From a virus: DNA of 31,303 nucleotides. Shown here piece after piece: positions 11,953 through 24,750 of the stretch. How positions within the stretch are numbered: the stretch's first letter is position 1; each line of letters starts with the position of its first letter. The DNA lies in IMG/VR virus record IMGVR_UViG_3300044846_000708, positions 1 through 31,303 of that record. The stretch is one strand, 5' to 3'. Under the pieces are notes generated by a model. It searched no databases. It was not told the DNA's origin and saw only the letters and a list, made by a program, of their open reading frames with translations. A program made the translations under genes and the position numbers.

Positions 11953-12488
11953 TGGAAAAAGAACGAACTAAAATAGCCGCAATATTTTTTTTGCTTGGTG
12001 TTATTGTTTCTGTAATTCTATTCCCTAAAAAGGAGATTGAAACCATTTACAAGACCACTACAGAAATTAAAACAGATACTTTGTTTGTCGACAAATTAGA
12101 GACGATTGAAGTTCCAAAGATTAAGATAAAAACACAGGTATTAAGGGATACAATCTTAATTGAGTACAAGCCTAAAATTAGCCTTTTTGAGACCACATTC
12201 CCTTCTACCTATGGAAGTACTAAGGTAAGCGGAGAAGTCTTGGGAGAGGTGCTTAAAATGACCGCAATTAATGACTATTCTTTACCGGTAGTTACCAAAA
12301 CAATTACGGAAGTAAAAACAGAGTCAATAGTACAAAAACCAAAGGGGATTTATTTGGGAGCAAGCATCAACTCTATGTTAGATCCGGGCGCAAAAGTTTC
12401 GTATCTTGATAATAAATATTTGTTTAGTTATCAGTACCAACCTTTGGAAAAATTACATACACTAAGTGTTAGCAAAAAACTTTTTTAA
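11952..12488 (+). CDS. Membrane-anchored periplasmic protein, spanin-like candidate
   Basis: A short basic N-terminus is followed by one hydrophobic segment (about 8-25, IAAIFFLLGVIVSVILFP), with no lipobox or cleavage-type site. A long Thr/Lys/Glu/Ile-rich beta-type or extended region follows (about 27-115). The end (about 133-178) has a GIYLGASIN segment and finishes in ...HTLSVSKKLF, resembling an outer-membrane beta-strand terminus with a final Phe. Position after amidase and holin and this topology (inner membrane anchor reaching towards the outer membrane) suggest a role in outer membrane disruption. This is inference; no spanin homology is claimed. Confidence 0.6.
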   Translation: MEKERTKIAAIFFLLGVIVSVILFPKKEIETIYKTTTEIKTDTLFVDKLETIEVPKIKIKTQVLRDTILIEYKPKISLFETTFPSTYGSTKVSGEVLGEVLKMTAINDYSLPVVTKTITEVKTESIVQKPKGIYLGASINSMLDPGAKVSYLDNKYLFSYQYQPLEKLHTLSVSKKLF

Positions 12489-12489
12489 T

Positions 12490-12735
12490 ATGTGGATCGA
12501 GATAGATGTAATGCTAAGTGGAAGTACAATGGATTGGAAGGAGTTAGGCTTGGAGGTAAAGCACGAGTTTACCAAACGAATGGTACGGGTAAAGGATGTA
12601 GCCTACGTTCAGGAGCTAGTGCATGATATTCAAGTAATATTTTTTTATGATCAAACTTCCTGCCTGATACGTGGAACCTATCCGGAGATCCGGGATGAGC
12701 TAATTCATTTAACTCAAGACGAAGACTTTGATTAA
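12490..12735 (+). CDS. Small hypothetical protein (81 aa), last of the late block
   Basis: I chose the ATG at 12490, one base after the previous stop, over a TTG inside the upstream gene. The product is acidic, mixed alpha/beta (WIEIDVMLSG, then GLEVKHEFTKRMVRVKDVAYV). No family recognised. It is followed by the large control region at 12736-12964. Confidence 0.6.
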   Translation: MWIEIDVMLSGSTMDWKELGLEVKHEFTKRMVRVKDVAYVQELVHDIQVIFFYDQTSCLIRGTYPEIRDELIHLTQDEDFD

Positions 12736-12741
12736 TTGCGT

Positions 12742-12828
12742 GTAAAAAACTGATTTTTTTACCCTTGTATTTCGGATATCTTCCGAATAACTGCATGAAT
12801 TTTTACTAACTATGGCATATCTGCCATA
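12742..12828 (+). promoter_or_regulatory. Cluster of inverted repeats in the late/early junction
   Basis: Three perfect inverted repeats occur in a row. GTAAAAAA/TTTTTTAC is at 12742-12749/12755-12762, and TTCGGA/TCCGAA at 12771-12776/12782-12787. TATGGCA/TGCCATA is at 12811-12817/12822-12828. The first could act as a weak terminator for the late block. The latter two look like operators, each with a TATC-type spacer. The rest of 12736-12964 is AT-rich and ends in a promoter. Confidence 0.5.
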
Positions 12829-12909
12829 AATAAAACCGGCCTATTTAAGGAATTTAACCGGATCAATAAAAATATTTGTCTTTTTTGTAAAAAATATTTG
12901 TAGAAATAG

Positions 12910-12940
12910 ATTGAATTCTAATTTATTTATAATATATTTG
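12910..12940 (+). promoter_or_regulatory. Strong Bacteroidota-type promoter for the early block
   Basis: ATTG (12910-12913), a 19-base spacer, and a perfect TATATTTG (12933-12940). The first early gene begins at 12965, giving a leader of about 20 bases. Confidence 0.75.
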
Positions 12941-12964
12941 ATACATAATAAAACGGCGAAGAAA

Positions 12965-13102
12965 ATGAAAACTCTAAAATTCAACACGGCATTAAAGCAA
13001 ATCAAAGAAGGTAGAATCGAATGTATCACCGATCTAAAAATCGGATATGTAGAAATCTACAATATGACCTCAAGAAAAAGAATGACAATCGAAATAATCT
13101 AA
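12965..13102 (+). CDS. Small early protein (45 aa)
   Basis: The ATG at 12965 follows the promoter with an A-rich leader; earlier in-frame starts would lie inside the promoter. The short basic product (MKTLKFNTALKQIKEGRIEC...) has a helix then beta strands. First gene of the early transcript, so it may be a host take-over or regulatory peptide, though nothing in the sequence shows this. Confidence 0.6.
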   Translation: MKTLKFNTALKQIKEGRIECITDLKIGYVEIYNMTSRKRMTIEII

Positions 13103-13114
13103 ACCCTAAAAAAA

Positions 13115-13303
13115 ATGAGAACCTACACAAACATCGATCAATTTATTAATAGCCTAAACGATCGTAGGGCTAAACAATATCAAGCCTTTTATTCATCAGC
13201 AATTAGATCGGGAAAATCCGAATACGAAGCAAAGATTGATTCGGCAGAATTTATTATTAAAATAGAAAAAATGTCAAGAGATAAATCAATTTTAAGATAC
13301 TAA
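13115..13303 (+). CDS. Small early protein (62 aa)
   Basis: A helical, charged product (INSLNDRRAKQYQAFYSSAI, then EAKIDSAEFIIKIEKMSR). No motif recognised. It lies between two small early genes with 5-12 base gaps and an A-rich start leader. Confidence 0.6.
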   Translation: MRTYTNIDQFINSLNDRRAKQYQAFYSSAIRSGKSEYEAKIDSAEFIIKIEKMSRDKSILRY

Positions 13304-13308
13304 TTATT

Positions 13309-13563
13309 ATGAATTACGAAACAGAAAGTTTTTTTGATCAGGAGATCAGCTTTAGCTACGAAGGACAAGACTACCTATGGATCGGGGATTATTCAGTAGA
13401 ATCCTTTGGAGAAGAGGAAAGCGAGTATGCACCGGCCTATGGAGAAATAGAGGTAATCATAGATCACACTCATAGTCTTTCATCTTATGAGCACGGCTAT
13501 GAGATAGTACCTACCCGGTCTATGCTGATGGCATTACAATTAGAAATCGAAAGAAATTATTAA
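13309..13563 (+). CDS. Small acidic early protein (84 aa)
   Basis: Strongly acidic and beta-rich: FDQEISFSYEGQDYLWIGDY, an EEESEYAP turn, then GEIEVIIDHTHSLSSYEHGY. Such acidic small phage proteins sometimes mimic DNA or bind host enzymes, but that is speculation here. No family recognised. It precedes the ERF gene by 19 bases containing a CCAAAAACCAAA leader. Confidence 0.65.
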   Translation: MNYETESFFDQEISFSYEGQDYLWIGDYSVESFGEEESEYAPAYGEIEVIIDHTHSLSSYEHGYEIVPTRSMLMALQLEIERNY

Positions 13564-13582
13564 CCAAACCAAAAACCAAATT

Positions 13583-14134
13583 ATGATTAAATCAGAGAGT
13601 ATTCAAAACCTAACACAAGGTCTAGCAAAGTTTCACGCTATGGTAGGCCGGATCTCAAAGGATGCAAAGAATCCCTTCTTTAAGTCAAACTATGCAAGCC
13701 TTCCGCACATCATCACAGAGATCTCTGAACCTATGGAGAAGGCAGGTCTTGTTATATCACAATTCCCCGATGGAGATGGTCTTACTACGATGTTAATTCA
13801 CGCAGAAACCGGTGAGTTTATTTCGGCTACCTATACCCTTCAGGTAGTAAGGCAGAATGACCCACAGGCACAGGGTAGTGCCTTGTCTTATGCCCGTAGG
13901 TACGGATTGACATCCGTTTTAAATTTAGCAATCTCAGATGACGATGCGGAGGCAGCTATGAAACCTTTTAGACAAGCACCTACACCTACTAAGGTAGCTC
14001 CTACAGAAGCTCAGTTTGCCGGCATAGTTCAGTACCTAAACGGATCACCCGAGCAACAAAAAGCTGCCAAGGAAGCACTTAAAAAATACACCTTAACCAA
14101 AGAACAAACAGACACTTTAGACGGATTGTTATGA
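13583..14134 (+). CDS. erf: ERF-family single-strand annealing recombinase
   Basis: The 183-residue protein carries the ERF core: LAKFHAMVGRISKDAKNPFFKSNYASL, ITEISEPMEKAGLVISQFPDG, TMLIHAETGEF, and the signature GSALSYARRYGLTSVLNLAISDDDAEAA (near residues 97-124). ERF proteins anneal complementary strands in phage recombination and genome circularisation. The C-terminal ~45 residues are a Pro/Thr linker and a helical end. A Gp157-like gene lies two genes on, a common pairing in phage recombination modules. Confidence 0.9.
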   Translation: MIKSESIQNLTQGLAKFHAMVGRISKDAKNPFFKSNYASLPHIITEISEPMEKAGLVISQFPDGDGLTTMLIHAETGEFISATYTLQVVRQNDPQAQGSALSYARRYGLTSVLNLAISDDDAEAAMKPFRQAPTPTKVAPTEAQFAGIVQYLNGSPEQQKAAKEALKKYTLTKEQTDTLDGLL

Positions 14135-14376
14135 ATAATGTAAACGTAATTGCTCCCGGAGCTTACAAGCTAAAAAAACAAGTTAATGGAAATTTTAGAT
14201 CAGTAATTTTAGATGAAGAGCTAGATCCTTTTCCGGTAGAATTAATCGGAGAAGATTGCATTCAGATAGAAACAAATGATATGGCATATATCACGCTATC
14301 AATAGGTAACCTTTTAGAGATTATTGAATTAATAGAAAAAGCAGAATTAAAATACTTTAAACGAGACAACAAATGA
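14131..14376 (+). CDS. Hypothetical protein (81 aa) in recombination operon
   Basis: ATGA overlaps at both ends put it between the ERF gene and the Gp157-like gene. The product has beta strands (APGAYKLKKQ, FRSVILDEELDPFPVELIGED) and a C-terminal helix (IGNLLEIIELIEKAELKYF). No family recognised; context implies a role with recombination or single-stranded DNA. Confidence 0.65.
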   Translation: MNNVNVIAPGAYKLKKQVNGNFRSVILDEELDPFPVELIGEDCIQIETNDMAYITLSIGNLLEIIELIEKAELKYFKRDNK

Positions 14377-14855
14377 ATCTATACGAAATCACAAGGGAGG
14401 CCCAAGAGTTGGCCTTCCTTTTAGAAACAGACGAATTAACTCCTGAATTAGAGGAGGCACTAGTTATTAATCAGGATCAGTTACAGACTAAAGCCGGTAA
14501 CTATGCAAAAGTCATAGCTAATATTCAATCGGATTCGGATTCAATCGAATATGAAATTAAAAGATTAAAGGCGATGAAGGAGACAAAAGATCGATCCATT
14601 AGTAGACTAAAGGAAGCTCTCAAATATGCGATGCTAGTAAGCGGAATAGAGAAGATTGAGTCAGGCCTATTTAAGATCTCATTGAGAAGATCCGAGGCAG
14701 TAGAGGTAGATGTACTAGAAGCCCTACCTAATGAGTTCGTAAACGTCAAGAATGTAATTACTGCTGACAAGATAGCTATTAAGGAAGCTATTAAAAGAGG
14801 GGAATATGTAATCGGTGCAAGAATAGTCGAAAACTTTAGCCTACAAATAAAATGA
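14373..14855 (+). CDS. Siphovirus Gp157-like protein
   Basis: The 160-residue sequence matches the Gp157 layout. An N-terminal acidic helix (LYEITREAQELAFLL) leads into a long coiled coil (about 45-90, NYAKVIANIQSDSDSIEYEI and on to KDRSISRLKEALKYAM). A beta end follows (FKISLRRSEAVEVDVLEALPNEFVNVK, then the IKEAIKRGEYVIGARIVE helix-strand). The family is usually encoded next to ERF/RecT genes. Its biochemical role is not settled. Confidence 0.85.
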   Translation: MNLYEITREAQELAFLLETDELTPELEEALVINQDQLQTKAGNYAKVIANIQSDSDSIEYEIKRLKAMKETKDRSISRLKEALKYAMLVSGIEKIESGLFKISLRRSEAVEVDVLEALPNEFVNVKNVITADKIAIKEAIKRGEYVIGARIVENFSLQIK

Positions 14856-15043
14856 GCCCGGATATAACAATGTGCCCAGGGACAAATTGTCCACACAAAG
14901 AAACCTGCTACAGATTTACGGCTTGGATTGGTGAATATCAATCGTTCTTTATGGAAGCCCCAATAAAAGACGGGAAGTGCGAGTATTATTGGGGAGAAAA
15001 TTCACAAAGTATTTGGAATCAACTTAAAGAAATAACAAAATGA
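14852..15043 (+). CDS. Small Cys-rich protein (63 aa), putative zinc-binding
   Basis: Three cysteines in MCPGTNCPHKETC with a fourth about 24 residues later (DGKCEYYW) suggest a metal site. Aromatic residues are frequent. It is coupled by ATGA overlaps to the genes on both sides. Function unknown. Confidence 0.65.
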   Translation: MSPDITMCPGTNCPHKETCYRFTAWIGEYQSFFMEAPIKDGKCEYYWGENSQSIWNQLKEITK

Positions 15044-15186
15044 AACCATATCTATACCTCGGAAAATTCATACAGAGACCGGGAGACCTTGCTCCTAAAG
15101 GAATCCGGTCTACCTATCAAACTGAAAAGCTAACATTTAACGAAACCTTTGAAAGAATATGGCAGCTTGTAAGCACGAATCACTAG
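15040..15186 (+). CDS. Small hypothetical protein (48 aa)
   Basis: ATG overlaps the previous stop (ATGA). The basic product (MKPYLYLGKFIQRPGD...) ends 28 bases inside the next gene. Position in a row of coupled genes supports it; no motif is seen. Confidence 0.5.
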   Translation: MKPYLYLGKFIQRPGDLAPKGIRSTYQTEKLTFNETFERIWQLVSTNH

Positions 15187-15488
15187 TTCCTTTGGTGCGG
15201 GATCTATATACTCAAGGCCAAACTAAATATCAGATAGCTGATACTATGGGAATACGAGCTACCACGGTGAACTATATCCTATACAACATTCTTGAAGTCT
15301 CAACCTATAATCCAAGGGCAAACCTAGTTAATGAAATGCCAAAGGAATTAGTTAACCGGGTAATTACCTTAGCATGTTGGGGATATACCAAGAAAGAAAT
15401 AGCTGAAGATCTAAATGTCAAGTTTAAACTAGTGGCGGATCTAGTTAAGGAGGCTACTGACAAAAAATTAATTCAAAAATATTTGTAG
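15159..15488 (+). CDS. Tandem helix-turn-helix protein
   Basis: The 109-residue protein contains two HTH-like units: about 22-44 (TKYQIADTMGIRATTVNYIL) and about 76-100 (YTKKEIAEDLNVKFKLVADL). Each has the usual helix, short turn and recognition helix. It lies at the end of the recombination block, directly before a promoter, so it may regulate early genes. An alternative is a phage DNA-packaging or replication adaptor. Confidence 0.6.
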   Translation: MAACKHESLVPLVRDLYTQGQTKYQIADTMGIRATTVNYILYNILEVSTYNPRANLVNEMPKELVNRVITLACWGYTKKEIAEDLNVKFKLVADLVKEATDKKLIQKYL

Positions 15489-15494
15489 ATCAGT

Positions 15495-15525
15495 GTTGGA
15501 AATTATAATCTATTTATTAGATTTG
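15495..15525 (+). promoter_or_regulatory. Bacteroidota-type promoter
   Basis: GTTG (15495-15498), a 19-base spacer, and TAGATTTG (15518-15525), a perfect TAnnTTTG. The next gene starts at 15556, about 25 bases after the expected start site. Confidence 0.75.
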
Positions 15526-15555
15526 TACATCATATAATTCTAACCCCAAAACCAA

Positions 15556-15828
15556 ATGGAAACAATTAACAGAGTAGCTTACCTAGAAGCCAAAGGAAAA
15601 TCACTTATTTGGCTAGCTTACGCAAATTACTTCGCAAGCGAAGAAATTGTTGAAGAAGGATTTAATCCTAATTCAGGATATGTCTACATCGCATTAGACA
15701 ACGGGATTACAATAGCTTCAGCATTCGGTCAAGACGTAGTATTTATTACATACGATTTCGATCAATACGAGGAGTTATTTTTCGACTCTTATGAGGAATT
15801 AAACAACTACTTAGAAAAAGCAAATTAA
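15556..15828 (+). CDS. Hypothetical early protein (90 aa)
   Basis: First gene of the 15495 promoter, with an AAAACCAAATG leader also used at 16296. The product is acidic and mixed alpha/beta (KGKSLIWLAYANYFASEEIV, GYVYIALDNGITIASAFGQD, then an acidic helical end). No family recognised. Confidence 0.65.
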   Translation: METINRVAYLEAKGKSLIWLAYANYFASEEIVEEGFNPNSGYVYIALDNGITIASAFGQDVVFITYDFDQYEELFFDSYEELNNYLEKAN

Positions 15829-15832
15829 GATC

Positions 15833-16159
15833 ATGAAAAAACTAGAAGTCAATAACGAGCTAATCGGTAAGTACATAAACCGAGTTTTATGGTCAGACGT
15901 AGATCCGGTAGGTAAAATCATCGGTATTAAAGGAAAGACCAAGGTAATTATTCAGCCTATTGAAGCGGGAGAAAACAAGGTCAAAATGGAATTTGTTGCC
16001 GGAGGTTTTTCCGCTCATTGCTTAAATCAATACAATCAAGAATATGATTTTCAAGAATCAGGAACCCCTTTTGATACTTCGCTATCTAATTCAAAACTAA
16101 AAAACAGATATTGGAGTATCGACAATCACCCAAGAAAATATTATGACTACAACTTCTAA
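15833..16159 (+). CDS. Hypothetical protein (108 aa)
   Basis: A beta-rich N-terminal part (LIGKYINRVLWSDVDPVGKI, KGKTKVIIQPIE, KVKMEFVAGGFSAHCLNQY) resembles a small SH3-like or barrel domain. The C-terminus is Asn/Tyr/Arg-rich and probably disordered. No function can be assigned. It overlaps the next likely gene by 17 bases. Confidence 0.65.
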   Translation: MKKLEVNNELIGKYINRVLWSDVDPVGKIIGIKGKTKVIIQPIEAGENKVKMEFVAGGFSAHCLNQYNQEYDFQESGTPFDTSLSNSKLKNRYWSIDNHPRKYYDYNF

Positions 16160-16283
16160 ACCAAAAGCCCCTTCGGGGGCTGCATTTAAACTTATGAAAA
16201 CACTAGGATTAATTATCTACACTATTATCGCTCTATTGCCAATATTCATATTAGGCTATATGCTAGGTCTTAAATTATTGTAA
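16143..16283 (+). CDS. Single-pass membrane peptide (46 aa; 29 aa if starting at 16194)
   Basis: From 16143 the product is MTTTSKPKAPSGAAFKLM followed by a hydrophobic segment (LGLIIYTIIALLPIFILGYM). An internal in-frame ATG at 16194 would give just the membrane part. The longer form overlaps the upstream gene by 17 bases and has a basic, Pro-rich cytoplasmic end. The GC-rich UUCG hairpin lies inside its coding region. Function unknown; superinfection exclusion or regulation at the membrane are common roles for such peptides. Confidence 0.55.
   Translation: MTTTSKPKAPSGAAFKLMKTLGLIIYTIIALLPIFILGYMLGLKLL
16166..16181 (+). other. Stable UUCG-tetraloop hairpin
   Basis: AGCCCC (16166-16171), TTCG loop, GGGGCT (16176-16181). 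No T run follows, so it is not a classic terminator. It sits just before the internal ATG at 16194 and could choose between the two starts of the membrane peptide or protect the upstream mRNA. Confidence 0.6.
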
Positions 16284-16295
16284 ACCAAAAACCAA

Positions 16296-16595
16296 ATGAA
16301 AAAACTAACATTAAAAACAACAAAGATTGTAGAAGGTACCACCGAAGTTCCTGAATACTTTCGTATTGATCATTCGCAGTACTACCGGATAGTTAACGAA
16401 AATATCTATGTATTGGTCTATTTTCACGATTTAAATCGAGAGACAATGGAAGCCTTAACCATCTATCCAGAGATTCAAGTGAAAAGGGTAGATCACCTGT
16501 ATATTCACGTTCAAAACAAGGATATTGTTGAAATCACTAAAGAACAATTCACCGAGCAGTTTGACGCTTGCATGACATTTATCGATCAGCTATGA
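16296..16595 (+). CDS. Hypothetical protein (99 aa)
   Basis: Beta-rich with aromatic strands (QYYRIVNENIYVLVYFHD, HLYIHVQNKDIVEIT), ending in a helix. The start has the AAACCAAAAACCAAATG leader. Stop overlaps the next ATG. No family recognised. Confidence 0.65.
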   Translation: MKKLTLKTTKIVEGTTEVPEYFRIDHSQYYRIVNENIYVLVYFHDLNRETMEALTIYPEIQVKRVDHLYIHVQNKDIVEITKEQFTEQFDACMTFIDQL

Positions 16596-16819
16596 AGACA
16601 GAATCACAAACCGCACTAATTAAGGGATGGCTATTAAACGGCCATTCCTTGACCACCCTAGAGGCTTTAACAATGTTTAGATGCTTCCGATTAGCCGCAA
16701 GGATTGATAACCTCAGAACCGCCGGTTTACCCATCCTGACAGAAATGATAGATATAAACGGGAAGCGAGTTGCACGATATTCATTAATCACGGATTTTGA
16801 CCTAATCGATAAGCGATGA
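16592..16819 (+). CDS. Helix-turn-helix domain protein (75 aa)
   Basis: I chose the ATG at 16592, which overlaps the upstream stop as ATGA. The sequence SQTALIKGWLLNGHSLTTLE, FRCFRLAARIDNLRTAGLP, then GKRVARYSL fits a common small winged-helix protein in phages (helix, ALxxFxxxRLAARIxxLRxxG recognition helix, then a wing). It probably binds DNA near the replication genes. Confidence 0.78.
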   Translation: MKTESQTALIKGWLLNGHSLTTLEALTMFRCFRLAARIDNLRTAGLPILTEMIDINGKRVARYSLITDFDLIDKR

Positions 16820-16965
16820 GACGGCGAAACCTAACAGAATACGAGAAGGAATTGATCTTTGAAAGATGGCAGGATCGGATACCTACAAAGGTAATAGCTA
16901 TAGAATTTGGTGTTAGCTACATGTGCATTTATTACCAACTAAAAAGGCGCAACTTAGTTGGATAA
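16816..16965 (+). CDS. Small helix-turn-helix protein (49 aa)
   Basis: ATGA overlap with the previous gene. The product is basic at the start (MRRRNLTEYEKELIFERWQD) with an HTH of the resolvase/homeodomain type (IPTKVIAIEFGVSYMCIYYQ). A candidate autoregulator; the -33 element of the next promoter lies within its last codons. Confidence 0.65.
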   Translation: MRRRNLTEYEKELIFERWQDRIPTKVIAIEFGVSYMCIYYQLKRRNLVG

Positions 16966-16987
16966 TCTAGAAAAAAACTTATATTCG
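16957..16987 (+). promoter_or_regulatory. Bacteroidota-type promoter for the structured RNA / replication genes
   Basis: GTTG (16957-16960), a 19-base spacer, and TATATTCG (16980-16987), one mismatch to TAnnTTTG. An inverted repeat ATTCGA/TCGAAT (16983-16988/16992-16997) overlaps the -7 element and the expected start near 16992-16995, so a repressor site is plausible. Confidence 0.6.
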
Positions 16988-16993
16988 AATATC

Positions 16994-17078
16994 GAATTAT
17001 TCATGTGTGGTAGCAAGAATAATTCTCAGGTTTACTAAACCTAGCCCGGCAGTCTACCACCTGTCGGGCTTTTTAATT
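16994..17078 (+). ncRNA. Three-hairpin RNA with complementary first and last loops
   Basis: Hairpin A is GAATTATTC/GAATAATTC (16994-17002/17017-17025), 9 perfect pairs with a 14-nt loop. Hairpin B is GGTTT/AAACC (17029-17033/17037-17041) with a 3-nt loop. Hairpin C is the terminator AGCCCGGCAG/CTGTCGGGCT (17043-17052/17061-17070) with an 8-nt loop. In loop A, GTGGTAG (17007-17013) is the exact complement of CTACCAC (17054-17060) in loop C, so a 7-bp kissing interaction is possible. A promoter ends at 16987 and a T tract follows 17070, giving an RNA of about 80-85 nt. It could be a separate small RNA or an attenuator leader for the replication genes. Confidence 0.6.
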
Positions 17079-17080
17079 TT
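17043..17080 (+). terminator. Strong rho-independent terminator before replication genes
   Basis: A 10-bp stem (17043-17052/17061-17070, one G-U pair), an 8-nt loop and a TTTTTAATTTT tract. It lies five bases before the start codon region of the next gene, so read-through or another promoter is needed to express that gene. Confidence 0.85.
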
Positions 17081-17084
17081 TATT

Positions 17085-17765
17085 ATGATAGGTAAAAAAT
17101 CCTTTATTATGTACACCGATCAGCGAGAAGTATTTGACGAACTAGATGACGTCACCGCCGGTAAGCTAATCAAACACATCTTTGCATACGTTAATGACGA
17201 AGATCCAAACACGGAAGACCTTCTTTTAAAGGTTGCATTCCTACCAATTAAGACTCAGCTTAAGCGAGATCTCAAGATATGGGACTCAAAGAAGCAACAA
17301 AGATCTGAAGCCGGAAGGAAAGGAGGTTTAGCAAAAGCTAGCAATGCTAGCGAAGTTCTAGCAAAACCTACGATCGCTACAAATATTGTAGCAAATCTAC
17401 CTGTTAATGTAAATGATAATGTTAATGTTAATGGTAATGTTAATGATATTTCTTCTTTTACTATTTTTACTAATAGGCGATTAGGAGGTAAAAATCTCTT
17501 TGAAGATATGATGCATATCTACGATCTAAACGAAGAGCAAATTCAAAAGCTATATCAGGAATGGGATTTAACTCATGAGGGTCAAACCTTTGAAAGCGAA
17601 AGGCATTTTAAAAATAGCTTTATACTATTCGTAAAAAATAACGCAAGTAGATTTAAGCAGGTAAAAAACAATTCCTACAGGCAAAAAACTGAAAGTAAAT
17701 CAGAAAATATTTTTAGCAAATTACTTGCTGAAGAAATCGAAAAAGAAAACCAAAATAAGCCATGA
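17085..17765 (+). CDS. Replication-type protein with DUF6291-like N-terminus
   Basis: I chose the ATG at 17085, after the terminator; a GTG within the upstream RNA is unlikely. The N-terminal half (KKSFIMYTDQREVFDELDDV, GKLIKHIFAYVNDEDP, LPIKTQLKRDLKIWDSKKQQ, RSEAGRKGG) matches a domain common at the start of Bacteroidota phage replication proteins. A low-complexity Asn/Val linker follows (about 131-145), then a helical C-terminal part (LFEDMMHIYDLNEEQIQKLY), possibly DnaD-like. It is probably a replication initiator or helicase-loading protein. The linker DNA is a degenerate GTTAAT hexamer run. ATGA overlap with the next gene. Confidence 0.72.
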   Translation: MIGKKSFIMYTDQREVFDELDDVTAGKLIKHIFAYVNDEDPNTEDLLLKVAFLPIKTQLKRDLKIWDSKKQQRSEAGRKGGLAKASNASEVLAKPTIATNIVANLPVNVNDNVNVNGNVNDISSFTIFTNRRLGGKNLFEDMMHIYDLNEEQIQKLYQEWDLTHEGQTFESERHFKNSFILFVKNNASRFKQVKNNSYRQKTESKSENIFSKLLAEEIEKENQNKP

Positions 17766-18391
17766 AAAAAACAATCTTAACACACCTTCAAAAAATGGAA
17801 TTCGTCTGCGGTCTTAAGCAGTTCAAAGAATACAAAGAAGAGGATGCAATCGAATTACTCAATTGCCTAAATAAATTATTTACAAGCTACGGATGGATGA
17901 ACGAAAGTCGGGTAGACTATATACTGCACGCAGGAATGCGAGGTCAGTACGGGGACTTCTATCACGTAAACGAAAAGACAGTCAGCGTTTGGATAAATCA
18001 ATACTACGCTCATCATCAAAGTCAAATTGTTCAGGAGGTACAGGCAATGAATAACGTAGACCGGGAGCCTTCAGAGGAAGAGATTGCACAATGGATAGAA
18101 ATAGGAAAGCAGATATTTCGGGATAATTATCAATACGCAAAAGATAACGGATACTGCAAGGATCTAGCCGAATGGGGAGGCAATTGGTTTAACAAGTTTC
18201 AGGAGAAAGGAATCTTAAAACCTTGGTTGTATCAAGTAGAAGAAATTGAGAAGGACGTACGCAGGGAATTAAGGCTTACTACCCGGTACATCGATGAAAT
18301 ATCTGTAGGAGCTAAATCAAAGAATAAAATTTGGAAGCTATTTATTTTAGAATCAATTCAGGAAAACAGAAACTTAGACAAATTAATATGA
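17762..18391 (+). CDS. Hypothetical replication-operon protein (209 aa)
   Basis: Mainly helical and charged (EDAIELLNCLNKLFTSYGWM, EEIAQWIEIGKQIFRDNYQY). It is coupled by ATGA overlaps to the initiator-like gene and a small membrane protein. The pairing suggests a replication partner such as a loader, but no ATPase motif (no GxxGxGK) is present. I do not recognise the family. Confidence 0.65.
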   Translation: MKKTILTHLQKMEFVCGLKQFKEYKEEDAIELLNCLNKLFTSYGWMNESRVDYILHAGMRGQYGDFYHVNEKTVSVWINQYYAHHQSQIVQEVQAMNNVDREPSEEEIAQWIEIGKQIFRDNYQYAKDNGYCKDLAEWGGNWFNKFQEKGILKPWLYQVEEIEKDVRRELRLTTRYIDEISVGAKSKNKIWKLFILESIQENRNLDKLI

Positions 18392-18564
18392 AAAAGTTAA
18401 TAGAAAGTCTAACTCCAAAAAAGCAGGATCTATTTAGTATGCAAACTACACTGCTAACTATCTTTACCCTTATGCACTTTAAATTTAATTGTGGACTTTG
18501 GTTTATATTCATTGTAGCTGGGGTTACCATAGCAATGGATTTTGTTTATAAAGCCTGCAAATGA
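18388..18564 (+). CDS. Small membrane protein (58 aa)
   Basis: The ATG at 18388 overlaps the upstream stop. A basic N-terminus (MKKLIESLTPKKQD) precedes one or two hydrophobic segments (MQTTLLTIFTLMHF; CGLWFIFIVAGVTIAMDFV). ATGA overlap with the resolvase gene. Function unknown. Confidence 0.6.
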   Translation: MKKLIESLTPKKQDLFSMQTTLLTIFTLMHFKFNCGLWFIFIVAGVTIAMDFVYKACK

Positions 18565-18902
18565 TTCAATTTAAACTTAATCAAAAGCCTTTATCAATTA
18601 ATCAGGCTTGGCAAGGAAAAAGGTTTAAATCACCTGCATATAAAATCTACGAAAAAGAAATGCTTTTGCTAATGCCAAAAGCAAAAATCGAAATAGATCA
18701 AATGTTAAGGATCGAGTTCTTTTTTGGATTTAGCAATTTAGTAAGCGATTTAGATAATCCTGTCAAGTTATTAATCGATATAGCTCAGAAAAAGTATGGA
18801 TTTAATGACAAAATGGTCTTTGAATTAAATGTAAGGAAATGCATTGTAAAGAAAGGGGAAGAGTTTATTCACATGGCAATTTATAAAATGCTACCTTTTT
18901 AG
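18561..18902 (+). CDS. rusA: RusA-family Holliday junction resolvase
   Basis: The 113-residue protein has the RusA features: SINQAWQGKRFKSPAYKIYE near the start, and SDLDNPVKLLIDIAQKKYGF with the conserved acidic residues followed by NDKMVFEL. RusA dimers cut four-way junctions arising in phage recombination and replication. The length is normal for the family. It ends the replication block; a promoter element follows. Confidence 0.88.
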   Translation: MIQFKLNQKPLSINQAWQGKRFKSPAYKIYEKEMLLLMPKAKIEIDQMLRIEFFFGFSNLVSDLDNPVKLLIDIAQKKYGFNDKMVFELNVRKCIVKKGEEFIHMAIYKMLPF

Positions 18903-18942
18903 ACATAATTAACCTTTAAAAATAAGATATTAATTTATTTTT

Positions 18943-18950
18943 TATATTTG
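18943..18950 (+). promoter_or_regulatory. Perfect -7 element without a clear -33
   Basis: TATATTTG lies 15 bases before the XRE gene. At the 19-base distance upstream there is AAAT in place of TTG. The promoter may be weak or need an activator, which suits a gene for a regulator. Confidence 0.5.
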
Positions 18951-18965
18951 AATAAATAAAAACAA

Positions 18966-19169
18966 ATGAGCTTAGAAGAAGGAAGATTGATTAGATCAGC
19001 AAGAAAAAAAACAGGCTATACGCAGCTACAATTATGCGAAAAGCTAGGAATTAGTCACGCACCTATTAATCAGATAGAAAACGGATTAGAAAGTATTAGC
19101 CTGCATAATCTAAGATTGATATGTGATGCAGTAGGATTAGAGGTAATTATTCAACATAAAAATGCCTAG
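18966..19169 (+). CDS. XRE (Cro/C1-type) transcriptional regulator, 67 aa
   Basis: A single HTH_3 domain fills the protein: EGRLIRSARKKTGYTQLQL, CEKLGISHAPINQIENGLES, LHNLRLICDAVGLEVII. No dimerisation or sensor domain is attached, so it is Cro-like in size. It is the first gene of the modification operon and may control it. The stop overlaps the next gene by 8 bases. There is no integrase nearby, so lysogeny control is not implied. Confidence 0.88.
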   Translation: MSLEEGRLIRSARKKTGYTQLQLCEKLGISHAPINQIENGLESISLHNLRLICDAVGLEVIIQHKNA

Positions 19170-19413
19170 AGGATTGCCTACCACAAAGCCGGACTATTCA
19201 CTTGAGATTCGTTACAAGAAATCAAATAACGAATGGTCTGAATGGTCACCGAAAGGTAAAGGCACTTTTCAAGGAATAGAAATAGTGCAGCGACAAATTA
19301 AAATTTTATCAAATCCCTATATCAACATAGAGAAGGAGATCCGCTTCATTTTATTTGGATCTATTTGTGATATTCAGGGAAATCCAACCGGTAAGGTTAT
19401 CACTTTAAAATAA
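19162..19413 (+). CDS. Hypothetical protein (83 aa)
   Basis: Starts with MPRGLPTTKPDYSLEIRYKK, then NNEWSEWSPKGKGTF and a beta-rich second half. No recognised family. Its place between the regulator and the ParB-like gene suggests either a small DNA-binding adaptor or an accessory of the modification cassette. Confidence 0.6.
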   Translation: MPRGLPTTKPDYSLEIRYKKSNNEWSEWSPKGKGTFQGIEIVQRQIKILSNPYINIEKEIRFILFGSICDIQGNPTGKVITLK

Positions 19414-19418
19414 AAAAC

Positions 19419-19955
19419 ATGAATATTCAAAAAGTAAAAATCGCACAAGTAAAAAGTAATCCGAATAACCCAAGGATTATTAAGGATGATAAGTTTCAGA
19501 AGTTAGTGCAATCTATTAAGGATTTTCCTAAAATGCTTGAGATCCGGCCTATAGTAGTTAACTCAGATATGATAGTCCTTGGAGGCAATATGAGGCTTAA
19601 GGCTTGCAAGGAAGCAGGGCTTAAAGACGTATTTATTATTCAAGCTAATGACCTCACAGAGGAGGAGCAAAATCAATTTATAATCAAAGACAATATAGGG
19701 TTTGGCGAATGGGATTGGGACATTTTAGCAAACGAATGGAATGTAGATAGCTTAGAAGATTGGGGTCTTATAATTCCTAATTTTGACACAGAACATTATA
19801 ACCCGAACTTAGATCCATCCACTAATTATAGTGATATTACTCAAGAGCAAATACAACGAGAAGCTGAGAAATTAGCAAATCAAATGCTAAAAGAAAGAAG
19901 GAAGGTAGAATGTATGTGTCCGGAATGTGGTACAGAATTTCAGATAGATGCTTGA
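19419..19955 (+). CDS. ParB-like (Srx-fold) protein with C-terminal Cys motif
   Basis: Residues about 3-75 form a ParB/sulfiredoxin-type domain (IAQVKSNPNNPR, ... IRPIVVNSDMIVLGGNMRLKACKEAG), with the GGNMR motif at 55-59. Next comes a stretch seen with phage methylase-linked ParB proteins (IKDNIGFGEWDWDILANEW). The C-terminus has VECMCPECGTEF (Cys165, Cys167, Cys170), a possible half zinc site. ParB-like domains bind CTP or ATP and DNA, or act as nucleases or kinases in other systems. Here it likely couples to the methyltransferase two genes on. Confidence 0.82.
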   Translation: MNIQKVKIAQVKSNPNNPRIIKDDKFQKLVQSIKDFPKMLEIRPIVVNSDMIVLGGNMRLKACKEAGLKDVFIIQANDLTEEEQNQFIIKDNIGFGEWDWDILANEWNVDSLEDWGLIIPNFDTEHYNPNLDPSTNYSDITQEQIQREAEKLANQMLKERRKVECMCPECGTEFQIDA

Positions 19956-20232
19956 AGAACAGGTACATAAATTATTAAGCGAAGCAAGATTTAAATTTGC
20001 CTTCTCTATGCCAACTATTCCTCATGAGTATTCTCATAGAGATCAATGGCTAAACGATAAAGACTTTTGCGATGTAGTTCAATTTATTAGAGATAACGGA
20101 ATTCAAGAGAAGTTTTTCAAAACAGAGTTTACGTACTATTACTTTAATGGACACAAGTATTGGACTATGGGTAATCCTTTATCCTATACGGATAAGAAAA
20201 AAACATACATTTTAAATAGAGCAAAAATATGA
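19948..20232 (+). CDS. Hypothetical protein (94 aa) between ParB-like and methyltransferase genes
   Basis: Aromatic-rich product with KFAFSMPTIPHEYSHRDQWL, FIRDNGIQEKFFKTEFTYYY, and HKYWTMGNPLSYTDKKKTYI. The His/Asp/Tyr-rich pattern looks conserved and could hold an active site. I recall similar proteins beside phage DNA methylases, but no function. Overlaps both neighbours. Confidence 0.65.
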   Translation: MLEEQVHKLLSEARFKFAFSMPTIPHEYSHRDQWLNDKDFCDVVQFIRDNGIQEKFFKTEFTYYYFNGHKYWTMGNPLSYTDKKKTYILNRAKI

Positions 20233-20831
20233 ATCATTTCATCACGAATTTTAACATCAAAGATCCAAGAGTTGAGCAAAATATTAAAGCTAACTTTCCT
20301 AATAAATTAGATTTTTGTTATACCGATCCTCCATGGGGAAGTGGAAATTTAAATTATTGGAAAACAATGAATCAAAAAATGACCGGAGCTAATTCGGATC
20401 TAATAAATCAAGTTGAGCTAGAAGAGATCTTTACTAGGTTAATTGTACAAAACGTAAAGAATTATGCATTTATTGTTTACGGGATTAGAGAGATGGATTC
20501 AGCGATTGCAATGTTTAAAAAATATTCAAACGTGACAAATATTCAGCACTACTTTAAGACCTATAGATCCGGAAATAAAATACTTAAGAACGTAGTAATT
20601 TGTGTCACTTTAAACGATGCGCCAATTGTTGATTGGAGTGGTTTAGAAAACCTACAGGGCTTAAAAGGATTACAATATGTTTGCGAAAAATTTAAGAATA
20701 ATTATAAAACATGTCTTGAATTATTTGTAGGCATTGGATACTATTTGAACATCTTAAATAAATACGGATATATAGTTTGTGGTAACGAATTAAATTCTGC
20801 TAGGTTAAAGAAAGCCTTGTCTAAACTATGA
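20229..20831 (+). CDS. Small DPPW-type SAM-dependent methyltransferase
   Basis: The 200-residue protein has motif IV DPPWGSGN (33-40) near the start and motif I CLELFVGIGYYLNIL (162-176) near the end, with Glu187 (CGNELN) as a likely SAM ribose contact. Motif IV before motif I is the beta-class order of amino methyltransferases, which methylate N6 of adenine or N4 of cytosine. There is little room for a target recognition domain. Its neighbours (ParB-like, GNAT, IbrAB-like) suggest a partner supplies specificity or a further modification step. Confidence 0.8.
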   Translation: MNHFITNFNIKDPRVEQNIKANFPNKLDFCYTDPPWGSGNLNYWKTMNQKMTGANSDLINQVELEEIFTRLIVQNVKNYAFIVYGIREMDSAIAMFKKYSNVTNIQHYFKTYRSGNKILKNVVICVTLNDAPIVDWSGLENLQGLKGLQYVCEKFKNNYKTCLELFVGIGYYLNILNKYGYIVCGNELNSARLKKALSKL

Positions 20832-21181
20832 TCAAGGAAATATATGATATCCCGAATAAAAAGGAGGCTGAGAAATCCGGCCTTCATTTCTGTAAGTCAA
20901 CAAAGATATACGGGATATTTATTGAGAATGAGTTGGCAGGGTATGCCGGATTAATCTTAAAAAAAGATAAAGCCATTTTTAAAAATGCTTTTATTTTTAA
21001 AGGCTTTAGAGGAGCAGGCCTTTTTAAAAAATTAATTGATTTTAGAATTGAGGCAACAAAAGACAAAAAAATTATTGAGGCGACATGCACTAAGATGAGC
21101 CTAAACGAATATCTAAAGCGTGGATTTAAAATTGTTCAGGAGTACAAACTTTATACGAAAGTAAGGCATGAAAATTTATAA
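20828..21181 (+). CDS. GNAT-fold acyltransferase (117 aa)
   Basis: A compact GNAT domain: IFIENELAGYAGLILKKDKA, then FIFKGFRGAGLFKKLIDFR with the RGAGLF pyrophosphate-binding turn of motif A, and the motif B-like MSLNEYLKRGFKIVQEY. GNATs move acyl groups from CoA or modify nucleic acids. Mu Mom is a GNAT relative that modifies DNA adenine, which makes a similar role beside a methyltransferase attractive, but direct Mom homology is not shown here. ATGA overlap upstream, 14-base overlap downstream. Confidence 0.8.
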   Translation: MIKEIYDIPNKKEAEKSGLHFCKSTKIYGIFIENELAGYAGLILKKDKAIFKNAFIFKGFRGAGLFKKLIDFRIEATKDKKIIEATCTKMSLNEYLKRGFKIVQEYKLYTKVRHENL

Positions 21182-22364
21182 CAATCAGAATGTATATAAT
21201 GCAGCTCTTGACAGAATTAGATTTTTGTTTGATGAGTTCGAAAATGTTGTTGTTGGATTTTCCGGAGGCAAGGATAGCACTGTTACTTTAAACCTTGCAC
21301 TAGAAGTTGCTCAAGAAAAGAATAGACTTCCGCTTAAGGTAATATTTGTAGATCAAGAAGCAGAGTGGCAGGGAACAATTGATTACGTAGAAAAGGTAAT
21401 GAAGGATAGCCGGGTAGATCCTTATTGGTTTCAAATGCCTATGGTTATTACAAATAATGCATCAAGCTATGAAAGATATTCTAGATGTTGGAATCCTTCC
21501 GAAAAAGAGAATTGGATTCACCCTCAACATGAAATGTCGATAAAGGAAAATAAATATGGAACGGAAAGGTTTCACGAATTATTTGAAAACATTTTTAAGG
21601 TTGAGTTTAAAAATCAAAAGAGTTGCTACCTATCCGGGGTAAGAACAGAAGAAGCTCCAAAACGATTTGTAGCCTTAACTCATGCACTGACATACAAGTG
21701 GATTACATGGGGTAAAGTCCTTAACAAAAAACTAAATCACTATACCTTTTATCCTTTATACGATTGGAGCTATACTGATATTTGGAAGTACATTTTAGAA
21801 AATAACATTGCGTATAACAAGGTTTACGATGGGATGTATCAGCAAGGAGTTCGGGTACTTGATATGAGAATATCTAATTTGCATCACGAAACTGCTATGC
21901 AGAATTTACTCTTAGTTCAAGAGATCGAACCTAATACGTGGAATAAGATTGCAAAAAGGATTGAAGGAGCTTCGAGTATTAAGCACATCAAAAACAATTC
22001 TTTTGCTTGCCCAAAGGAATTACCCTACATGTTTAAAGATTGGGAAGATTACGCATACCATCTAGCAAACAACATTATTCAGGAAGAGAATAACAAAAAA
22101 CTACTTATCAGTAAAATCGAATCTAAAAAGAATATCTATACCGGCGATAATATCAAGCACTCTTTTTGGAAGGTAATTATAAACACGATCCTTTCAAGCG
22201 ATTGGGACTTTACAAAGATTGCTAATTACGAAATGTCACCTTTGGTTTACGGATACCGAAAATATAAAACAGGTAAGATTGATGAAAAACTTTTAATGGA
22301 CACCAAAGTTTTTACCGAGACAGAGCTGAAAGAAATTAAACAGATACTATATGGAAGAGATTAA
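21168..22364 (+). CDS. PAPS reductase-family ATP pyrophosphatase, IbrA-like
   Basis: The 398-residue protein opens with VVVGFSGGKDSTVTLNLAL, whose SGGKDS loop (32-37) binds ATP in PAPS reductase/N-type ATP pyrophosphatases. Next is KVIFVDQEAEWQGTIDYVE. The length, the SCYLSGVRTEEAPKRF segment, the FYPLYDWSYTDIWKYI helix and a DUF3440-like C-terminus fit IbrA/YbdN-type proteins. The catalytic role of IbrA is not settled; DndC is a relative that acts in DNA phosphorothioation. The next gene is the expected ParB-like IbrB partner, sharing a 14-base overlap. Confidence 0.85.
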   Translation: MKIYNNQNVYNAALDRIRFLFDEFENVVVGFSGGKDSTVTLNLALEVAQEKNRLPLKVIFVDQEAEWQGTIDYVEKVMKDSRVDPYWFQMPMVITNNASSYERYSRCWNPSEKENWIHPQHEMSIKENKYGTERFHELFENIFKVEFKNQKSCYLSGVRTEEAPKRFVALTHALTYKWITWGKVLNKKLNHYTFYPLYDWSYTDIWKYILENNIAYNKVYDGMYQQGVRVLDMRISNLHHETAMQNLLLVQEIEPNTWNKIAKRIEGASSIKHIKNNSFACPKELPYMFKDWEDYAYHLANNIIQEENNKKLLISKIESKKNIYTGDNIKHSFWKVIINTILSSDWDFTKIANYEMSPLVYGYRKYKTGKIDEKLLMDTKVFTETELKEIKQILYGRD

Positions 22365-23004
22365 AATTGAGATCCGAGAAGCCTTTTATGAGGCAGAGGA
22401 TAAAATTAAATTTGTTAATGAGTTAAATGAATTCATACACAAAGAAATATCCGAGATTAAGCAGCCCATTGATTTCGTGAGATGGATACCTATTGAAAAG
22501 GTGTCCCCAAACGATTACAATCCAAATAGCGTTGCCAAGATAGAAATGGGATTGCTATACAAAAGCATTAAGCACGATGGATATACTCAGCCCATCGTAA
22601 CTATTTACGATAAAGAAAAAGACAAGTATGTTATTGTAGATGGATTCCACCGGTACTTTACCTGCAAAACAAATAAGGATATCTACGAAAGAAATAAAGG
22701 TCATCTTCCTTGCGTTGTAATCGAGAAGGATATCAACGAAAGAATGGCTGCCACCGTGAGACACAACCGAGCGAGGGGAGAACATAGTGTAGCCGGTATG
22801 GGTAACATGGTATTTGAAATGCTAGAAAACGGATGGACAGAAACAGAGATATGTAATCATCTTGGTATGGAACCTGAAGAGATTCTAAAGCTAAAACACA
22901 TTACAGGATTTAGCAGATTATTTGAAAACGTAAACTATCAGAAAAGTTGGGAAACAAAGAATCAGATTAAGCTAAAGAAGGAATATCAAAGTAAGCAAGA
23001 GTGA
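22351..23004 (+). CDS. ParB-like protein, IbrB-like partner
   Basis: The 217-residue protein has a ParB/Srx domain at about 42-125 (WIPIEKVSPNDYNPNSVAK, GYTQPIVTIYDKE, YVIVDGFHRYF with DGFHR at 97-101). It continues with RMAATVRHNRARGEHSVAGM (131-150) and an HTH-like helix pair (ENGWTETEICNHLGMEPEEI), as in IbrB/YbdM proteins. In known cases IbrA and IbrB are encoded as a pair and act together. The next gene begins at GTGA inside its stop. Confidence 0.85.
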   Translation: MEEIKIEIREAFYEAEDKIKFVNELNEFIHKEISEIKQPIDFVRWIPIEKVSPNDYNPNSVAKIEMGLLYKSIKHDGYTQPIVTIYDKEKDKYVIVDGFHRYFTCKTNKDIYERNKGHLPCVVIEKDINERMAATVRHNRARGEHSVAGMGNMVFEMLENGWTETEICNHLGMEPEEILKLKHITGFSRLFENVNYQKSWETKNQIKLKKEYQSKQE

Positions 23005-23486
23005 AGTCGATCGGATGGCTATATGATCGAGAGTTTGAGTATGTTTTTAAGAACATAGGAAAAGACCTATGGGAAGATCTCAGACAAGAGGTTGCGTATA
23101 TAGTCTTTCAATATGATCGAGCAAAGATTACAGAACTAGAAGAAAAAGGAAAGCAGGTCTTTAAATTTTGGATAGTTCGAATCTGCTGCAATCAAACTAA
23201 TAGTAAATACGGGAAGTTTGGCAGGCTATATTCAAGCCTTTTACCGGTAGAAGATATTCTAAAATTTGTCAAGGAGGAGGAGCCAATTGATAATAGCCAA
23301 GAGGTATTCGATAGCATATCTAAAATAGTAGAAGGCTTGTATTGGTACGATCAGGAGATCCTTAAGATGTATGTAGATTTAGGAAGCGTTCGAAAGGTAA
23401 GCAAGCAAACCGGGATTCCTCACACGTCAATATTTATAACAATTAAAAAAATACGCTCATGTATCAAATCGCAGTTGGTTTACTAG
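23001..23486 (+). CDS. Sigma-70-like protein (161 aa)
   Basis: It starts with GTG in a GTGA overlap. The N-terminal part (DLWEDLRQEVAYIVFQ ... FKFWIVRICCNQT) resembles sigma region 2 of ECF-like proteins. The end (YDQEILKMYVDLGSVRKVSK, QTGIPHTSIFITIKKIRSCI) resembles region 4 with an HTH at about 127-156. It might redirect host RNA polymerase to late genes, several of which lack the usual promoter. It could also be a simple DNA-binding factor. Confidence 0.65.
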   Translation: MKSIGWLYDREFEYVFKNIGKDLWEDLRQEVAYIVFQYDRAKITELEEKGKQVFKFWIVRICCNQTNSKYGKFGRLYSSLLPVEDILKFVKEEEPIDNSQEVFDSISKIVEGLYWYDQEILKMYVDLGSVRKVSKQTGIPHTSIFITIKKIRSCIKSQLVY

Positions 23487-23725
23487 GATCGATAGGGATT
23501 ACCTTGCTTTACTATTATATTATTAACATTCCTAAAATATTTAAGAAAGTAACGGGAATTACTTTAGGCAAGCCTTTTGGATGTACATTTTGTATGTCCT
23601 TTTGGATATGCTTTTCGTATCTCCTTTGGAATACAAGTTTTGTGGAGGCGATATTTATAGGAAGTACAACACCATTTATTTACCTTTTAATTGAGGATTA
23701 TTTAACAAACAAATTTCAACTATGA
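23459..23725 (+). CDS. Membrane protein with Cys pair (88 aa)
   Basis: Hydrophobic segments at about 4-24 and 48-78 (including FCMSFWICFSYLLWN and IFIGSTTPFIYLLIE) flank GKPFGCTFCMSFW. The CxxC-like pair and membrane layout resemble DUF1360-type proteins. Overlaps the sigma-like gene by 28 bases. Function unknown. Confidence 0.65.
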   Translation: MYQIAVGLLGSIGITLLYYYIINIPKIFKKVTGITLGKPFGCTFCMSFWICFSYLLWNTSFVEAIFIGSTTPFIYLLIEDYLTNKFQL

Positions 23726-24045
23726 CACCGGAAGATCACGAACTATTCAAGAAGCACATGGAATTATACGAGTGCTACAAGAAACACGCTTTTATTAGAA
23801 ACTACAATAAGGAAGTTTACAATGATTTGATTTATCTCTATACTACGTACGTAAACGCTAAGCATACCTTTTCTCATTGGTGTAGCTCTTGCCGTATGGA
23901 GTTGGTAAATTACCTATACGGATGGTATACTAATGAAGAACACACTACTTGGTACCGGCAGCAGGAGCAAGAAAGTGCCGAAGTATTGTTATCTTCGGAG
24001 GAAGTAACTCCTGTAAAAAGAACAAGAAAAACCAAAACCACATAA
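23722..24045 (+). CDS. Small Cys-containing protein (107 aa)
   Basis: Helical N-terminus (EDHELFKKHMELYECYKKHA), then HTFSHWCSSCRMELVNYLYG with a CSSC pair, and a basic, probably disordered tail (PVKRTRKTKTT). ATGA overlap with the membrane protein, whose own Cys pair may act with this one. No established function. Confidence 0.65.
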   Translation: MTPEDHELFKKHMELYECYKKHAFIRNYNKEVYNDLIYLYTTYVNAKHTFSHWCSSCRMELVNYLYGWYTNEEHTTWYRQQEQESAEVLLSSEEVTPVKRTRKTKTT

Positions 24046-24049
24046 ACCA

Positions 24050-24337
24050 ATGGAAGAAAAACAAAAAGTAAAGCTAGGGAACGGAAAGAAAAGAAACGAT
24101 TCTTGGATTACATCATCATTTTGTATTACAGATGCGGAGGAACATGCTTATACCTATGAAGGTAAAAAGTATGTAAACATTAATATCAATGTTTATGAAG
24201 AGGCTAATAAATACGGGAAGGATGTAGCCATTACCTTAAACGATTATAAAAAGCAAGAAAATGTTAGCCCACAGGTTAACAAGATGCCTGTGGCTAATGC
24301 TCCTTATCAAGCAGAGGAATACGATCTACCCTTTTAA
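24050..24337 (+). CDS. Single-strand DNA-binding-like protein with SSB-type tail
   Basis: The 95-residue protein is beta-rich (SWITSSFCITDAEEHAYTYE, GKKYVNININVYEEANKYGK, DVAITLNDYKKQ), followed by a flexible linker and the acidic-hydrophobic end EEYDLPF. This end resembles the DDIPF-type tip by which bacterial SSB recruits partner proteins. A phage SSB or an SSB mimic is plausible. The fold assignment is my inference. Confidence 0.55.
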   Translation: MEEKQKVKLGNGKKRNDSWITSSFCITDAEEHAYTYEGKKYVNININVYEEANKYGKDVAITLNDYKKQENVSPQVNKMPVANAPYQAEEYDLPF

Positions 24338-24591
24338 TGAAAAAGCATACTAAGATTTACATGGAATATTTTGGCTACACGATAGCTGATTTTATTCCAT
24401 GTGAAGTATGCGGATCTCAAGCAGTAGATATACATCACATAAAGGCTAGGGGAATGGGAGGTAGCAAGCTAGCTGACCGAATAGAAAACCTAATGGCATT
24501 GTGCAGAAGATGTCACGATACTATGGGGGATATAACAAGTCAAAGAGAATACTTACAGGAAAAGCACAAAGAAAAAATGCAAGTCAGGTGA
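24337..24591 (+). CDS. HNH-type endonuclease-like protein (84 aa)
   Basis: Two zinc-type Cys pairs, CEVCGSQ and LCRRCHD, bracket IHHIKARGMGGSKLADRIENL, the usual HNH beta-beta-alpha core with catalytic His (HH at about 37-38). HNH proteins near terminase genes often help packaging; others are homing nucleases. The last codons overlap the 5' end of the tRNA-like RNA. Confidence 0.82.
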   Translation: MKKHTKIYMEYFGYTIADFIPCEVCGSQAVDIHHIKARGMGGSKLADRIENLMALCRRCHDTMGDITSQREYLQEKHKEKMQVR

Positions 24592-24690
24592 CGGAATTGG
24601 TAAACGTACATCGGAGCTGCTTGTCAAAAGTGATGGCATATTGAGATAACCTTAGATGTGTATGCAGGTTCGAATCCTGTCCTGACTACA
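24582..24690 (+). tRNA. tRNA-like RNA (Leu/Ser-type), anomalous anticodon region
   Basis: The acceptor stem is AGTCAGG (24582-24588) with CCTGACT (24681-24687). A TGACGGAATTGGTAAACGTA D-arm of class II (Leu-like) type follows. The T arm is GCAGG-TTCGAAT-CCTGT (24664-24680). The 3' end is ACA, with no encoded CCA. Between D-arm and T-arm lie about 55 bases, roughly 20 more than in a normal tRNA-Leu. I cannot build a standard 5-bp anticodon stem with a U33-NNN loop. CATC (24609-24612) can pair with either GATG at 24632-24635 or at 24655-24658. So it may be a tRNA with an insertion, a decayed tRNA, or a tRNA mimic. Confidence 0.5.
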
Positions 24691-24750
24691 AGGCTAAGCG
24701 ATCCCACCTGCCTACAATTGGGATGTGAGTTGTTAGTAGGTAGCCTTTCT
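24690..24750 (+). ncRNA. Pseudoknot-capable RNA next to the tRNA-like gene
   Basis: An outer stem AAGGCTA/TAGCCTT (24690-24696/24741-24747) encloses ATCCCA/TGGGAT (24701-24706/24719-24724). The loop of the latter holds CCTAC (24711-24715), which pairs with GTAGG (24736-24740), directly against the outer stem. This is an H-type pseudoknot. A TTTCTTATT stretch follows, so a terminator role is also possible. The next gene starts at 24780. Confidence 0.5.

Follow-up and report, generated by a model that had tools for sequence, protein, structure and literature searches.

Antisense control of replication initiators is well known from plasmids, among them ColE1 with RNAI and RNAII, pT181, pMV158 with its RNAII, and ColIb-P9, in which the repZ leader forms a pseudoknot. 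Among phage RNAs, the put RNA of HK022 forms hairpins at the 5' end of the early transcript and acts on RNA polymerase, and to our knowledge it contains no kissing pair, while the pRNA of phi29 carries two complementary loops in one short RNA. Attenuators and SreA-type terminated leaders consist, in this order, of a promoter, a structured leader, an intrinsic terminator and a gene, and the released leader may act as a small RNA. Antisense control of the replication initiator by RNAII of pMV158 has been described (PMC4485353), and lambda OOP is a self-terminated phage RNA of about 77 nt beside the replication initiator and origin which is antisense to cII (PMC12197685).

The locus analysed here lies in a complete virus record of 31,303 bases, referred to below as the window, the terminase of which resembles those of phages of Bacteroides and Flavobacterium. 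It resembles the plasmid antisense systems in that an RNA precedes a replication-initiation gene, in a loop-loop pairing of about 7 bp and in the logic of a leader pseudoknot or attenuation, but differs from them in that both partners are on one sense-strand RNA with its own terminator, that there is no counter-transcript and that the carriers are phages; promoter, terminator and G-U pairs are all on the sense strand, and not on the opposite strand as in plasmid-type control. Lambda OOP is likewise a self-terminated phage RNA beside a replication initiator; in contrast to OOP, however, the present RNA has the same strand as the operon and a conserved kissing pair, and it is intergenic and in sense orientation, with no antisense overlap with a regulatory gene. 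The resemblance to HK022 put, compared by description, is in hairpins at the 5' end of a transcript that could influence termination. The genomic place, the size and the number of kissing pairs all differ from phi29 pRNA, and the unit is linked to replication genes and has no link to packaging or packaging-motor genes. As in attenuators and SreA-type leaders, promoter, structured leader, intrinsic terminator and gene follow one another, with no intervening gene in the window and in all 54 distinct flanks of the window family described below; unlike in these leaders, no ligand domain or alternative antiterminator was found and the terminator loop is itself the pairing surface.

A search of the window and eight relatives against Rfam 15 gave no family at the gathering score except a tRNA in one relative, and the best match near the unit, trpB, scored 23.5 bits where 59 are required. 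The open literature searched contained no description of such an RNA. The leader thus appears to be a previously uncatalogued RNA and a new RNA family, although of a known kind, that is, a structured attenuator or regulatory leader.

Anatomy of the unit in the window

The promoter, 9-bp hairpin, small hairpin, terminator, loop words and start codon that an earlier note had proposed from the letters of this DNA were all found where it had placed them. The features of the region are as follows.

16816-16965, + strand: upstream ORF of 49 aa, helix-turn-helix, HTH_23-like (Pfam HTH_23 E 2e-4, below the curated cut-off)
16958-16987, + strand: promoter, TTG (16958-16960), N19 and the -7 box TATATTCG (16980-16987)
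~16992, + strand: predicted transcription start (+1), about 2 nt 5' of H1, from placement of the box at -12 to -5 (PMC9723704)
16994-17025, + strand: hairpin H1, 9-bp stem (16994-17002/17017-17025), 14-nt loop
17007-17013, + strand: kissing word 1, GTGGTAG, in the H1 loop
17028-17042, + strand: hairpin H2, 6 bp, 3-nt loop
17043-17070, + strand: terminator hairpin, 10 bp (seven G-C, one G-U), 8-nt loop, followed by a T-run
17054-17060, + strand: kissing word 2, CTACCAC, in the 8-nt terminator loop
17085-17765, + strand: DUF6291 gene (Pfam DUF6291 E 3e-23), the first of the replication operon

The last codons of the helix-turn-helix ORF overlap the -33 region of the promoter, and the ATG of the DUF6291 gene is 14 nt past the terminator stem. 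The flavobacterial sigma-A consensus is TAnnTTTG at -12 to -5 (PMC9723704), and TATATTTG is the prevailing -7 box among relatives, whereas the TTG at -33 is not retained in all of them. Since the box corresponds to this consensus, the RNA is expected to start at H1 or within a few bases of it in the families examined, which moves the start proposed earlier, near 16993, to about 16992.

The unit is intergenic within a run of + strand genes, and its terminator is the strongest intrinsic-terminator match on both strands of 12400-24700. The RNA strand folds at -33.3 kcal/mol (z = -5.7), and none of 200 shuffled sequences did as well. G-U pairs occur in the terminator stem, and the structure is thus that of an RNA of the + strand and not of DNA. 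The predicted fold contains no mutually exclusive antiterminator structure; the kissing pair can coexist with the terminator stem and so does not qualify as a classical antiterminator. When the letters of both loops were shuffled, the loop match in the window had a probability of P = 0.0056, so that the 1 in 1000 estimated previously was somewhat optimistic. At this value the window alone would not settle the loop pairing, which the comparative evidence does.

At the DNA level, blast comparison of the region with known phages gave no match. Elsewhere in the window, a single capsid-type gene seems to be split into the ORFs at 4858-5382 and 5342-5773 by a frame change, either a sequencing error or real, and a PAPS-reductase/DUF3440 protein followed by a ParB-like protein at 21168-23004 forms an ibrA/ibrB-like pair.

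Paired changes in the two loops

Scanning IMG/VR for the terminator pattern yielded 70 stretches. The window family comprises 47 distinct RNAs, and in all 47 the loop-loop complement is a perfect 7 bp. Four loop types were seen, GTGGTAG/CTACCAC (14 RNAs), GTGGAAG/CTTCCAC (6), GTGAGAG/CTCTCAC (15) and GTAGGAG/CTCCTAC (12). The stems are compensated as well, with inner pairs of H1 changing from TG/CA to AG/CT and pairs in the terminator stem from CAG/CTG to CTG/CAG. A scan free of loop constraints for loops beyond these four alleles on the window-family terminator stem added a single match, unrelated-looking and self-complementary, and among GTDB genomes no exact window-type RNA was found.

Further scaffold families were obtained from protein-guided scans of IMG/VR; H2 is present in the window family and absent from the other scaffold families. 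Covariation was judged by direct pair counts. In family ii (30 sequences) the kissing helix is 99.5% paired with 6 of 7 pairs altered on both sides, and in family iii (23 sequences) it is 100% paired with all seven altered on both sides, together 13 of 14. The covariation score of the whole structure was 0.746 in family ii, against 0.06-0.10 with slid partners, and 0.557 in family iii, against 0.09-0.14; sliding the partner by 1-3 columns thus abolished the signal. On a single scaffold, the pair CTCTCAC/GTGAGAG of one contig (L241) is replaced by CTTCCAC/GTGGAAG in another (L243). These many matched changes strongly support a kissing pairing that has been conserved by evolution. Paired changes in both loops were the check that the earlier note had named for its proposed kissing interaction, and no uncompensated loss was seen; its RNA unit of promoter, hairpin and terminator with a real kissing pair is thus borne out by covariation in the window family and in families ii and iii.

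The same layout, with a flavobacterial -7 box, a 5'-terminal hairpin and a loop-complementary terminator, is present with unrelated sequences in the isolated phages 11b, Muminvirus/Lillamyvirus, elemo, Harreka and Baltivirus. The following kissing pairs all lie upstream of a DUF6291 relative or its operon.

Phage 11b: CGGGCAGG/CCTGCCCG
lillamy, filifjonk, snork and kin: GTGAGACG/CGTCTCAC
elemo: GTGAGATG/CATCTCAC
Olleya phage Harreka: GTGGTGG/CCACCAC
Cellulophaga phages phi13:2 and phi19:3: CTCTCACAA/TTGTGAGAG

In the elemo phage (MT497065), an annotated CDS overlapping the RNA promoter and H1 (L091:1030-1149; the relative with the tRNA match) is probably spurious.

In a permutation test over 32 clusters, in which box and terminator were picked regardless of complementarity, a complement of at least 7 nt was found in 75% of own loop pairs and in 12% of those swapped between clusters. 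An ordinary terminator after the upstream gene, with a loop complement arisen by chance, could claim a loop match of P about 0.006 in the window alone; it is refuted by this test and by the double-sided covariation in every family examined, and its probability is close to nil.

The covariation is blind to whether the loops pair within one molecule or between two identical ones, and dimers or rings could therefore be considered, as formed by phi29 packaging RNA or by HIV at dimer initiation. In family iii the H1 loop of 7 nt is wholly the kissing word, which would suit such pairing. The unit is, however, located at replication and not at packaging genes, and the linkers appear long enough for pairing within one molecule, so that we regard pairing between molecules as very improbable.

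The kissing words nearly always start with GU on one strand (the other ending in AC). Families i, iii and iv have this GU strand in H1, whereas family ii has it in the terminator loop, giving two mirrored layouts. Diversifying selection on the kissing words, as for orthogonal 'immunity types', was considered and rejected: mean entropies of kissing, stem and other positions were 0.85, 1.25 and 0.78 in family ii and 0.66, 0.69 and 0.68 in family iii, and since the kissing columns do not exceed the rest in variability, the changes are ordinary compensatory ones. Another recurrent unit, with box, terminator and a GGTAGCC/GGCTACC complement but no close downstream start codon, was seen in three contigs (L103, L015 and L055; for example L015:2388-2505), and is possibly another RNA element or a product of chance.

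The RNA was not found at the non-Bacteroidota relatives of the gene in Vibrio and Pseudoalteromonas (Vibrio 1.265.O and PS_L5), and no convincing unit was seen in the Bacteroidales phages BC669P2 and Porphyromonas 005b or in one faecal contig. In bacterial genome assemblies, 20 of 22 gene relatives had no such RNA, from which it follows that the DUF6291-type gene does not need the RNA there. As the relatives in bacterial assemblies, Vibrio and Pseudoalteromonas mostly lack it, the RNA belongs, on present evidence, to phages of Bacteroidota.

Position before initiator genes and third copies of the H1 word

The start codon of the replication-initiation gene is 11-19 nt past the terminator stem in 54 of 54 distinct flanks of the window family, a family gathered mostly by RNA pattern and not by protein. 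Three dissimilar types of gene, alike in the kind of role they have, follow, encoding DUF6291, Lin1244_N (replication initiation protein) and a DnaD-like helicase loader; DUF6291 relatives in isolated phages are annotated as 'replication protein', and a PHROG match to 'primosomal protein' is weak. Loop types are spread across these gene types, indicating that RNA and gene have recombined while the position stayed fixed. The RNA and DUF6291 are separated by one or more further genes in some phages. Each of the complete or near-complete carriers scanned (the window, 11b, lillamy and Harreka) has one convincing copy, the only intergenic, GC-containing match of its kind.

Relatives with a longer space before the start codon carry a further copy of the H1 word immediately upstream of the ATG, as listed here by word and contig.

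GTTGCAG: L187, L194-196, L202
GTCGCAG: L186, L188
CTTCGACA: L184, L198
AGGCAG: L255
AGTGCAG: L222, L231, L244

Among 116 distinct RNAs with 50 kissing words, nine sense copies were observed between the terminator and 60 nt beyond it, against 0.12 expected from other words (L133 and L198 being the same contig in this count), with no antisense copies and no excess elsewhere. Between L186 (GTCGCAG) and L187 (GTTGCAG) the matching base is changed in all three places. Because the word recurs before the ATG, the terminator loop of these phages has two possible pairing partners, H1 and the start region. A seed complementary to the initiator start region is thus found, as five different words, in a subset of relatives. 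The third copy is absent from the window and most relatives, which rules out terminator-loop pairing with the start region as the general function.

The RNA might instead be a stand-alone small RNA of the phage acting in trans, with a compact, nuclease-resistant fold, a target elsewhere (host RNA, defence or other phage RNA) and an incidental synteny. Its own promoter and terminator, a predicted start that coincides with H1 and the single copy per genome are consistent with this. Kissing words were, however, not enriched as targets elsewhere in phage flanks, the unit remains fixed before the initiator start codon even when the gene is swapped for a dissimilar one, and some relatives carry the third copies at that codon; we consider a trans-acting RNA rather unlikely. 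CTACCAC also occurs in the window close to the beginning of the gene at 19162, but it was not found as a site shared among relatives and was rejected as a target.

Within the DUF6291 gene, TGTTAA and 18-bp iteron-like repeats at 17402-17445 (+ strand) encode an NVNVND stretch, and relatives encode similar NVN stretches; the repeats are a possible replication origin inside the initiator gene. Transcription from the promoter of the unit, or the RNA itself, might then activate or prime replication at the iterons of this adjacent gene, much as a primer role was once ascribed to lambda OOP RNA, which lies near the origin (PMC12197685). No coupling of the kissing words with the TGTTAA repeats was seen, however, and if transcription had to pass through the repeats, one would not expect a terminator between them and the promoter, which makes an origin-linked role improbable.

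Proposed control of the replication initiator

The earlier note had left open a small RNA or an attenuator. The unit is fixed, at 11-19 nt, before whichever initiator gene follows, and some relatives have a third, matching copy; the evidence thus leans towards a leader or attenuator, with which a released small RNA is compatible. We see about an even chance that the unit is a self-terminating leader RNA of about 84 nt (~16992-17075) which heads the replication operon and gates expression of the replication initiator, the leader probably also being released as a small RNA of this length. The transcript and its termination, as well as the regulation and its direction, are predicted here from the DNA.

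In such a leader, the host sigma-A promoter would fire and H1 would form at the extreme 5' end, and the loop of the emerging terminator hairpin would pair with the H1 loop over 7 bp. Most transcripts would end at the T-run and be released as a compact small RNA clamped at both ends, and a minority would read through and allow the initiator to be made (DUF6291 here; Lin1244_N or a DnaD-like loader in relatives). How stable the terminator hairpin is and when it forms would depend on the kissing contact, and the folded terminator, within the ribosome footprint of the start codon, may limit translation as well as transcription. In F. johnsoniae, lower translation is linked to structure in the region from -20 to +20 around the start codon (PMC6847099), a region in which the folded terminator also lies. 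In the relatives with a third copy, H1 could be a built-in mimic competing with the start site for the terminator loop, giving a translational switch. The fuller form of this idea is a three-way switch, in which the terminator loop would choose between the 5' mimic hairpin and the start region of the replication gene, and the terminated leader, released as a self-inhibited antisense RNA, would set initiator translation according to phage copy number; we consider it unlikely.

The structured RNA is common to most examined flavobacterial phages with a DUF6291-type replication gene, several isolated phages included, the share of loci being a biased estimate, as detection required a -7-type box and a T-run. 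The covariation is strong enough to define an RNA family. The dozens of self-matched kissing pairs on related scaffolds form a natural set useful for studies of loop-loop interaction and of termination. With the proposed leader, the question of how such phages meter their replication initiator receives an answer that can be tested, and the three-way switch, if true, would be a phage control of the copy-number type with all its parts encoded on the sense strand.
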